Assembly: GCA_944323145.1 (NCBI GenBank) | Contig: CALURJ010000012.1 | Span: forward strand, 1-62,075 | DNA: 62,075 nucleotides | Origin: Candidatus Gastranaerophilales bacterium | GTDB taxonomy: Bacteria; Cyanobacteriota; Vampirovibrionia; Gastranaerophilales; Gastranaerophilaceae | Direction of reading: 5' to 3' | Shown: one piece after another, positions 58,096 through 61,478 of the stretch | Layout of the letters: each line of letters begins with the position of its first letter | Position numbering within the stretch: the first letter of the stretch is position 1 | Position numbers and translations under genes: made by a program | Notes under the pieces: model-generated | Told to the model about the DNA's origin: nothing | The model's database searches: none | Seen by the model: the letters and a program-made list of their open reading frames with translations, nothing else

Positions 58096-58124
58096 AAAGG
58101 GCCCGCTTTATGCGGGCTTTTTTA
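58096..58124. terminator. Intrinsic terminator, possibly bidirectional
   Basis: GCCCGC-TTTAT-GCGGGC with A-rich left and T6 right flanks. It lies between the VSFRG gene and hemW, overlapping the hemW stop. Confidence 0.78.
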
Positions 58125-59210
58125 TTCCAAAAATTCTGAAAGAATAACGTTACTGACAAGTATTCCGCTGTCAGTAAGTGCAAATCCTGTATTAGTTTCT
58201 TTAAGATACTTATAGGAAATGTACTTTTTTAATTGTCCTGCGTACTTTTGGGAGAAATCAATATGAAATTTTTCATTTATTTTTTTTGTATTTATACCGT
58301 TTAATTTGCGGAATCCCAGAAAAATTTCTTCCTCTAATTGTTCTTGCTGCGTGACTTTGTGGGTTTGTTTATGAGTGCATGGATTTTTTATATATTCCTT
58401 TAAATTTGATGTATTAAAATATCTTATACCGTTTTCGTACCCGTGTGCGGCAAGACCGAAGCCATAATAACTGTTATTATCCCAGTAATTTAAGTTATGG
58501 CGTGATTCAAAATTGTTAAGAGCAAAATTACTTATTTCATAATGTTGAAAATTATTTTTAGTGAGAATGTCAATTGCTTTTAAGTACATGTCGGCCTGTA
58601 TATCTTCATCAGGAAGATTTTCGGGCGGATTTTTGTAGAAAAAACATCCTTCTTCTATTTTTAAACCGTAAAGTGATATGTGCTGAATACCTAAAGAAAC
58701 CGCATGTTCCAAATCTTTTTCAAACATTTTGATTGTTTGTTCCGGCAGGCCGTAAATGAAATCTAAGCTTATGTTTTTGAACCCCGCGGTTTTAGCAAAT
58801 TTGATTGCATTTTCGACATCTTGCGAATTGTGCCTGCGTCCTATTTTTCTTAAAATTTTGTCGTTGAAAGTCTGGCAGCCGAAGCTTAATCTGTTTACAC
58901 CGGTTTCTTTCAATTGTTTGAGGTAATCTTGTGTAATTGTTTCCGGATTGAGTTCAGCCGTAATTTCTGTTGAGGAATTTATGTTAAAAAGTTTAATAAT
59001 TTGAGAAAATTCATCCGGTGTAAGCAGTGACGGGGTGCCGCCGCCAAAATACAGAGTATTTAACTCTTCTTCCTTGTATGAGTTGAGAATTTCTGTTTTT
59101 AATGAAGATAAATATTCTGTTTTTAAGCTAATTGTACAAAAAGATACGAATGAACAATACTTACATTTTGATTTGCAAAACGGGATATGTATGTAAACAT
59201 TTTTTATCAT
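58122..59210 (-). CDS. hemW: HemW-like radical SAM protein
   Basis: HemW is a heme-binding radical-SAM relative of coproporphyrinogen III oxidase, thought to insert or chaperone heme. The cluster motif Cys12-x3-Cys16-x2-Cys19 (FCKSKCKYCSF) is followed by Phe21, not Cys, which marks HemW rather than HemN. YFGGGTPSLLTP, ELNPETI and GCQTFNDKILRKIGRRH are typical. At 362 residues it has normal HemW length, with the HemN-C-like end. TATAAT lies 12 bases before the ATG and no ribosome site is seen, so the leader is very short. Confidence 0.9.
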   Translation of the reverse strand: MIKNVYIHIPFCKSKCKYCSFVSFCTISLKTEYLSSLKTEILNSYKEEELNTLYFGGGTPSLLTPDEFSQIIKLFNINSSTEITAELNPETITQDYLKQLKETGVNRLSFGCQTFNDKILRKIGRRHNSQDVENAIKFAKTAGFKNISLDFIYGLPEQTIKMFEKDLEHAVSLGIQHISLYGLKIEEGCFFYKNPPENLPDEDIQADMYLKAIDILTKNNFQHYEISNFALNNFESRHNLNYWDNNSYYGFGLAAHGYENGIRYFNTSNLKEYIKNPCTHKQTHKVTQQEQLEEEIFLGFRKLNGINTKKINEKFHIDFSQKYAGQLKKYISYKYLKETNTGFALTDSGILVSNVILSEFLE

Positions 59211-59309
59211 AATTTATATAGTATTATAAATAATATTTAAATTATAGTTGCAAAGTTAATATAATATGAGTTGTAATAAAGTATGTAACCTTAAAGGAAT
59301 GGAGTAATT

Positions 59310-61251
59310 ATGGGAATGATTGTAAACAAATGCAAAAAACTCGGGGGGGGGCACTCTAAGCACTCCTGACGAGGTTTTTGGGGATTTAAGCAGAGTAAAA
59401 TTTAAGCATTTCGGTTTTACCTTAGCTGAGATGATGGTTGTTATGCTAATATTGAGTATCATTATGGCAGCCATGGCACCTGTAATGACTACGAGAAATA
59501 AACTTGATCAGTCATCACCGTGGAGTTGGTCAACTAATGGTTCAGATGCGTATTACGGCTTAGGTGATGCGCAGGTCGCCATGATCGGTCAGGAGGAAGT
59601 AAAACCTGATGATGATGCTTCAAAATTAATAATCAACGCAGGTAATGATAAAAATCATATATTATTTAAAACCGGAGAAACAGTCCAGGGTTTTTTAAGA
59701 TTTAAAGATAACACAATTGCCCTGAGCAATTCTGATAATCCAATGGGAGAAAATGGAGTAGCAATAGGTTCTAATGCACTAAGAGATTATAACAGTGGAT
59801 ATCAGAATATTGCAATAGGATCTTCAGCAATACTTGGCGGAGCTAGTGGAAGTGGAAATGTCGCTATAGGTGATAATGCCCTAAATTATAATGGAGGAGG
59901 TCACAATGTTGCAATTGGTTACTATGCTTTAGGTTCACCAGGTGCATCATTTGTTGCATATAATGATCCTGATGTTTCAATCGGTATCGGAATGCTTGCA
60001 TCCGTTGACGGGTCTCATTCAATAGCAATAGGCTCTGCAGATAGTACTGCAACCACCAGCCAGAGTATATCAGGGGCCACAGCCGTAGGAGACCATACAA
60101 TTGCACTTGGTTCAAATGTTTATTCTTATGATAGGTCTATTGCCATTGGATATAATACAACTGCCGGTTACGATGAATCCGAAAAAAGTTACTCTGGAAA
60201 TGCTATAGCAATTGGTACAAGAGCAAATGCCATAGATTATGGTATTGCCATAGGAGATAGTGCCGATGCGTCTACTCTAAATGCAGAATATGGTGGTGGA
60301 GATGTTGCAATCGGGAGAGAAGCTTGGGCGTCTAAGAACGGAGCCATAGCAATTGGTTATGATGCGAATAGTTTAGGCAAATCCTCTGTTGCTATAGGCC
60401 AATTAAGTCGTGCTGGCGGTGACTCTGCAGTTGCAATTGGTGAGGGGGCTGAAGGATATGGAGAGAATAATATTGCAATTGGTAAAAATGCGTGTGTAAA
60501 TACAAGAGGTCCGAACAAAATATGTATCGGAGCAAATTCTGGTCCACAGCAGTCTTCGCATCCTTGGGCGCGTGTATTAGATAAAGAAGAACGAATATTT
60601 ATAGGCAGCAAGTCAAAATACAATAATGGAACAGCTGTATTAGAAGTTCATAATACAACTGAAACCGCACCAAACGGTATGAGTAGTTATAGCAATATGA
60701 ATGCTAGTGGTGTTGTTATAAATGGTGCTTTAATCGTAAGAGGACCTATTTTTACTGCTTCACGGTTAAACTCTTCACCTGTATGGAATGCACTTACAAA
60801 TACAGAATTACGTGTCTTAGAACATTATGAGGCTAAAAATAGTGCAGGTGATTCTGAAGCTGTTTTAAAACGCGGTTATGCATGGGAAAATCTTCACCCG
60901 CTTGTTAGTTCCGACCGCCGATTGAAATACGTCGGTAAAGAGAATACCTCAGGCTTAGAAAAAATTAAGCAATTAAAAGTCTTTAACTACACCTTCAAAA
61001 AAGACGACAAGAAAACTCCTCACGTCGGCGTAATTGCACAGGACTTGCAAAAAGTCTTTCCTGATGCTGTTACAAAAGCCAAAGACGGTTTTCTGAGAAT
61101 ACGTTTTGAAGATATGTTCTTTGCAATGATAAATGCTATCAAGGAACTTGATTCACGTATTACTGCTCTTGAAAAAGAAAATCAGAAATTAAAGGAGCAA
61201 AACAAGGAGCTTGATGCACGTTTGAAGGTGCTCGAAGCAAAAGTTAAATAG
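59310..61251 (+). CDS. Prepilin-like YadA-head/S74 adhesin, frame-disrupted at a G9 tract
   Basis: ATG 59310 follows GGAG and opens a frame that stops at TGA 59367 because of a nine-G tract at 59343-59351. With eight (or eleven) Gs the frame would read through to TAG 61251: a 35-residue leader ending HFG, then FTLAEMMVVMLILSIIMAA, a prepilin cleavage and N-methylation site with its hydrophobic helix. No start codon exists in the downstream frame before that site. The body has many AIG-type YadA head repeats (about 59750-60540; AIGSNALRD, VAIGDNAL, AIGYDAN). It ends with an S74 intramolecular chaperone (SDRRLK Ser-Lys dyad, HVGVIAQDLQKVFPDAV) and a coiled coil. It is likely a surface fibre that is off in this sequence. 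Assembly error in the tract is the main alternative. Confidence 0.8.
59343..59351 (+). repeat. Poly-G tract (9 G), candidate phase-variation switch
   Basis: Nine consecutive G in an AT-rich genome, 11 codons after the start of the adhesin gene. Changing the count by minus one (or plus two) joins the start codon to the long downstream frame. Confidence 0.75.
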
Positions 61252-61338: not shown

Positions 61339-61344
61339 TTAGTT

Positions 61345-61478
61345 ACCCACCCCTGCCCCTGTCTTGCCCGCTTTGCGATAAACGGGCACGGCTCCGCCTT
61401 TGGCCCTCTGCAAAGCGGGCGTTCCCTAATCAGGGAGGGGAAAAAGCCTTCCCTGTCTAGGAAAGGTTTGGATGGGTT
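61345..61478. repeat. C/G-rich nested palindromic element
   Basis: Ends ACCCACCCC and GGATGGGT. Inside, CCCGCTTTGC pairs with GCAAAGCGGG, and CCCTAATCAGGGAGGGG is a sub-palindrome. Another CCCTGTTTAGGGAGGG copy lies at 61502-61517. This and the next element explain most of the 534 bases between 61252 and 61785. Confidence 0.65.

Follow-up and report, generated by a model that had tools for sequence, protein, structure and literature searches.

The window, the whole 62,075-nucleotide stretch of DNA analysed here, is a single contig from a genome of 1.885 Mb whose relatives are labelled Candidatus Gastranaerophilales. It contains a gene in which a run of nine G residues lies between the start codon and the coding region of a putative surface fibre. 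This run is likely to be a contingency tract, and the gene to be one of many prepilin-type surface fibre genes in a repertoire that switches by slipped-strand phase variation. The tract, the reading frames, the open leaders, the enrichment of such tracts, and the differences in length and state among paralogues and orthologues are directly observed. The features of the locus are:

58122–59210, minus strand: HemW-like radical SAM gene, the divergent neighbour, used as a marker of the orthologous locus
59290–59315, plus strand: SD-like sequence GGAATGGAG and start codon ATG 59310, identified from the sequence
59343–59351, plus strand: G9 tract, identified from the sequence
59352–59412, plus strand: leader segment, in which only the prepilin frame lacks stops (none, versus three and two in the other frames)
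59367–59369, plus strand: TGA ending the ATG 59310 frame at G9 (the OFF state), from translation of the frames
59404–59475, plus strand: prepilin cleavage/methylation motif G|FTLAEMMVVMLILSIIMAAMAPVMT (N_methyl; Pfam 29.9 bits, cut-off 21.2)
60292–60366, plus strand: best-scoring YadA head repeat (Pfam YadA_head 35.2 bits, cut-off 25)
60910–61074, plus strand: S74 intramolecular chaperone/protease domain with SDRRLK (Pfam Peptidase_S74 59.3 bits, cut-off 22)
61105–61248, plus strand: C-terminal helix predicted after S74 (residues 579–625 of the predicted model)

Start codons were assigned from an SD-like motif and its distance, and ATG 59310 is preceded by an SD-like GGAG. A second ATG at 59316 shares its frame, and both run into TGA 59367, so that the ATG 59310 frame comprises only 19 residues (MGMIVNKCKKLGGGHSKHS). 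The first-pass annotation had reported exactly this course, from the start through G9 into a stop 16 bases past the tract, and its inference that lengths of 8 or 11 would restore the frame is correct. The prepilin frame meets no stop between 59326 and TAG 61249–61251. No ATG, GTG, or TTG was found in this frame ahead of the G/FTLAE site of the window gene, in agreement with the earlier claim that no alternative start precedes it; the earliest start codon, ATG 59431, lies beyond the site.

The three domains first proposed for the downstream frame, a prepilin leader, a YadA-like head, and S74, all exceed their Pfam cut-offs. The G/FTLAE site is followed by a hydrophobic helix, which satisfies the sequence criterion for a prepilin. 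YadA-like repeats occupy much of the central region of the protein and match YadA (1p9h) by PDB sequence comparison (E 2.8e-7) and YadA-like heads by Foldseek; over both sequence and structure comparisons, the heads of YadA, BpaC, and BoaA are all matched. The S74 residues S514, D515, R517, L518, and K519 are invariant in the 22 sequences compared, meeting the SDxxxK criterion. A Pfam scan of the open frame found no YadA membrane anchor family, and the C-terminus consists of S74 and the helix. Structure prediction of the monomer was confident over the head repeats only and poor over S74. By analogy with other S74 proteins, the domain is inferred to bring about trimerisation of the fibre and to release itself by self-cleavage. 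That the protein is a surface-displayed adhesin is likewise inferred, from its domains. The predicted fibre is probably displayed by filament machinery of the type IV kind, with processing and assembly inferred; a termite-gut relative possesses pilD/B/C/T (PMC5877343). The combination of prepilin, YadA head, and S74 had been called unusual in the first-pass annotation, which cannot be maintained: it is common in the group, with matches to the window protein in 64 of 97 related genomes.

The leader of the window gene is not alone in being open in the prepilin frame. For each tract in the same genome, the nearest downstream prepilin motif was located in any frame and the intervening stops were counted, without requiring an open frame and leaving out three tracts that belong to a neighboring gene. 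The motif frame was free of stops in 34 of 35 leaders, over up to 158 codons, while the two alternative frames were full of them. Since all but one of the tested leaders are stop-free in the prepilin frame only, the joined protein is inferred to be produced at some time. The genome also holds two tract-free S74 paralogues, both frame-continuous: one starts directly at the prepilin leader, and the other (C30) has a leader homologous to that of the window gene (ALGTPDRSFGDLRGFNFKHF versus TLSTPDEVFGDLSRVKFKHF) in one continuous frame. The criterion for an SSR locus that tract length determines read-through of a single ORF is met.

These leaders bear on two further explanations. Translation could begin downstream of the tract, which would then lie in an untranslated leader, and in-frame ATGs do occur in some long leaders. 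The window gene has no such codon, and internal initiation is rejected for it; more generally it is disfavoured by the frame-specific absence of stops, which begins at the tract itself, and we regard it as very improbable. It is harder still to credit that the gene is a decaying pseudogene. The window gene is out of frame in the assembly, but more than 600 codons downstream are intact, the prepilin and S74 residues are invariant, 34 of 35 leaders are open, and tract-bearing orthologues persist in five species. A degrading downstream frame, which the first-pass annotation had named together with reads uniformly at nine G as refuting the switch, is not seen, and the pseudogene reading is rejected.

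The genome contains 47 G/C tracts of at least 8, of which 34 are exactly 10. Markov models built on the composition of the window predict 0.6–5 tracts of at least 8 and 0.1–1 of at least 9 per 1.885 Mb; 45 of the latter were found. A tract lies no more than 620 nt upstream of 30 of the 48 prepilin genes; 31 of the 47 are placed in this way, against an expectation of 0.74 (P about 1e-44). Neither the abundance of the tracts nor their placement by prepilin genes can be explained by chance, and the SSR-locus criterion of an in-frame repeat tract longer or commoner than chance is met. Given tract-bearing sister genes by the dozen, cells probably flip individual fibres randomly on and off.

Tracts that are not near prepilin genes lie mostly within other genes, including glycosyltransferase-like sequences and a radical SAM protein; these labels come from reading of the translations, without profile support. 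In the same genome, G/C tracts were seen inside enzyme-like genes (glycosyltransferase-like, radical SAM-like, and others) at L069, L072, L095, L099, L102, L106, L107, and L109. Where a start was assigned, most of these enzyme-like genes read in frame at length 10, unlike the prepilin genes. Two species carry a near-identical radical SAM gene (L095:1499 and L294:1501); one copy has G10 where the second reads GGGGGGGGAG, the substitution interrupting the tract and keeping the reading frame. Separately, a dispersed repeat of about 100 nt in the intergenic part of the window (61344–61445) shares 94–95% identity with segments that are read as coding in long prepilin leaders, those of the tracted genes L078, L080, and L093 at least; from this identity, open prepilin leaders seem to have taken in intergenic repeats.

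Comparison of close copies shows that tract length and state both vary. Synteny of the hemW-linked gene is conserved in five further species, with HemW identities of 69–81%, and tract-bearing orthologues occupy the locus in five species. The gene is OFF at G9 in the window and at G10 in L145, L191, and L146, ON at G10 in L151, and without a tract in L157. Among paralogues within one genome, L148 (G11, ON) and L163 (G10, OFF) are 90% identical over the 250 bases past the tract, and L176 (G11, OFF) and L208 (G10, ON) are 94% identical over the same distance; L180, a similar paralogue of the latter two, is G11 and OFF. Orthologues in genomes G000 and G032 share an identical start-to-tract segment, with C11 and an ON state in one (L083) and C10 and an OFF state in the other (L250). 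The SSR-locus criterion that close copies or orthologues differ in length, with a change of state, is met, and from these differences it follows that the frame is set by tract length, which shifts on a short evolutionary timescale. A leader open in the prepilin frame only, a continuous tract-free paralogue, and a tract kept in five species at differing lengths and states all support the phase switch first proposed for the window gene. The proposal of a single poly-G locus was too narrow, as the locus belongs to a genome-wide set of dozens.

All of the genomes are assemblies, those of the relatives mostly MAGs, and G-tract lengths are liable to mis-calling (PMC9187656). The true tract of the window gene might therefore be in frame and the gene constitutively ON. 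Published lengths have proved fallible: a G11 annotated in Bifidobacterium breve is mostly G12 in cells (PMC9187656). An error of this kind is nevertheless improbable here, given that the mode at length 10 recurs in many genomes from several projects, that longer tracts (12–14) were assembled in other genomes, and that one assembly holds the same leader at different lengths. Viral contigs, considered as a source of further strains, gave one pattern match and six distant relatives and were not useful.

The tracts also obey a frame rule. Of the 82 prepilin tracts in G000 and G032, 67 would join the frame at a length of 8 or 11 and break it at 10, which is the commonest. G tracts and C tracts behave alike, whatever the phase of the start-to-tract distance, and 17 of the 82 are ON. 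In G053, which belongs to another genus, 35 of 36 follow the in-frame-at-8/11 rule and six are ON. In G040, G044, and G002, represented by small samples with most tracts 12–13 long, genes are also mostly out of frame, and mostly need one base fewer. With the prepilin frame broken at the most frequent tract length (G10 in the genus), approximately 80% of the genes are OFF in the three well-sampled genomes. Read most simply, the rule reflects a preference for the OFF state at the equilibrium length, which leaves few fibres ON at once. Common descent may contribute to the rule; as an explanation on its own it is weakened, although not excluded, by the fact that both G and C tracts and differing start-distance phases obey.

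The same regularity is also an argument for the main rival, programmed recoding at a fixed tract. Here the DNA would stay at 10, and −1 ribosomal frameshifting, or addition of one base by RNA polymerase, would give constant low-level expression of all fibres. G10 or C10 is a possible slippery sequence, the tracts are mostly exactly 10, and the relation holds in 67 of 82 cases in G000 and G032, across G and C tracts and varied start distances, and in 35 of 36 in G053. Its direction, however, is not universal, being reversed in the small samples from G040, G044, and G002; tract lengths of orthologues and paralogues do vary and alter the state; roughly one tracted gene in five is plainly in frame; and RNA structure after the tracts is absent (mean z 0.17, n = 122 sites). 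The reversed direction in the long-tract genomes, the length differences, and the missing RNA structure favour switching in the DNA; leaky recoding is not excluded, and we hold programmed recoding to be unlikely while giving it some weight.

Certain observations do count against slippage: tract lengths are narrower than those of Campylobacter, and in the three best-sampled genomes the prepilin frame almost always calls for a one-base addition at length 10, as would also be expected from programmed slippage. The genome encodes both MutS1 and MutL, which may keep slippage slow and leaves loss of mismatch repair unsupported as a source of instability.

Under slipped-strand phase variation, the reading we prefer, mispairing during replication would alter the length of the G9 tract. 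At the assembled length, a ribosome would run from ATG 59310 to the TGA and no fibre would be made. At an in-frame length, the start would be joined to the prepilin-type signal, the YadA-like head repeats, and the self-processing S74 chaperone, and the resulting fibre would insert through the pilin-like N-terminus, form a trimer by means of S74, and be presented at the surface as an adhesin. About 30 prepilin genes of the genome are wired as the window gene is, and with most tracted prepilin genes OFF and about a fifth ON in the three well-sampled genomes, each lineage would carry a different subset of surface fibres. Slippage as the cause, mixtures within populations, and a selective advantage remain inferences, as do surface display and adhesion, and for a mixture of lengths within a population there are no read data. 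It is tempting to speculate that the whole prepilin repertoire (tens to more than 100 genes) is kept exactly one base out of frame at the equilibrium length, with OFF as the default and the frame relation as a selected trait. Expression of any one fibre would then depend entirely on rare slippage events, whether in the DNA (pulsed and clonal) or during RNA synthesis or translation (constant and low-level for all fibres). This proposal is tentative, and we lean against it at present.

Across the 97 related genomes, the number of tracts of at least 9 ranges from 0 to 176; the maximum occurs in one species with a genome of about 2.2 Mb, and in G026, 169 of 176 tracts are exactly 10. Medians for the genus are 63 tracts and 74 prepilins, compared with 2 and 12 in sampled genomes outside the family (kinship beyond the genus was taken from genome labels). 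Tract count follows prepilin count over 33 genomes of the genus (Spearman 0.70). G021, G029, and G061 have 116, 96, and 88 prepilins but only 4, 9, and 0 G tracts, respectively; their repertoires are either constitutive or under another switch. G045 (L331, L332, L334, L365, and others) contains many copies of a different G10 leader, in which ACACAAAC or GGACAAGC is followed by G10 and then TAAACCGCTCATACCAAAGGTTTTGGCGATTTTTTGATTTTTTAT. No prepilin motif was found downstream of leaders of this type, and the sequence after their tract resembles a hairpin and T-run. Several tracts in G048 and G045 lie no more than 300 bases from contig ends, as would be expected if length mixtures or repeats had broken the assembly.

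Coding homopolymer tracts in which slippage joins or breaks a frame, at many loci per genome and affecting surface determinants, are shared with Campylobacter and Neisseria. C. jejuni NCTC11168 has 29 loci with tracts of 7 or more, and major lengths in an assay of this species were G8 257, G9 214, G10 431, G11 77, and G12 9 (PMC4965091); prediction combined with deep sequencing indicated 115 phase-variable genes in N. meningitidis (PMC5084427). The first-pass annotation had drawn its parallel with phase-variable tracts of pathogens, which is sound as to the kind of mechanism but not the organism, a gut commensal. The Gastranaerophilales are of a different class, and their tracts mainly target prepilin-type genes, are very uniform in length, break the reading frame at their most frequent length, and number up to 176 of at least 9 per genome, larger than the 29 loci of C. 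jejuni.

Other systems share single elements. The sortase-pilus switch of the gut commensal B. breve also places a G tract (G11/G12) inside a pilin-type gene, between the secretion signal and the rest; the second ORF lacks a start there too, and the mouse gut enriches the ON length (PMC9187656). It differs in that a genome has just one or two such loci, the pili are of the sortase type, and the proteins are unrelated (PMC9187656). The mosaic adhesive trimer fibres of Bdellovibrio, according to the part of the report available, are a large family per genome that similarly end in a self-cleaving S74 chaperone with SDxxxK, cut at the catalytic serine (PMC10769870). That part describes a signal peptide and a conserved N-terminal domain of about 130 residues rather than a prepilin site, and mentions no tract switch (PMC10769870). 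The shufflon PilV of I-complex plasmids likewise carries a variable adhesin on a type IV minor pilin, although a recombinase-driven inversion swaps its C-terminal domains, in place of slippage between ON and OFF (PMC9045228). YadA-type trimeric autotransporter adhesins have the same head repeats, whereas the window protein has S74, a prepilin N-terminus, and no YadA membrane anchor that could be found. No paper joining Gastranaerophilales or Melainabacteria with phase variation was found in the literature searched, which excluded most subscription journals. As far as found, the mechanism is of a known kind, and the lineage, the target class, the scale, and the frame rule are new.

Random switching of fibres has until now been described mainly in pathogens; the organisms concerned here are little-studied gut commensals related to cyanobacteria. 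Where examined, their tracts are aimed largely at prepilin-type surface proteins. The frame rule that makes OFF the default is an unusual quantitative regularity, and calls for a selective or mechanistic explanation.
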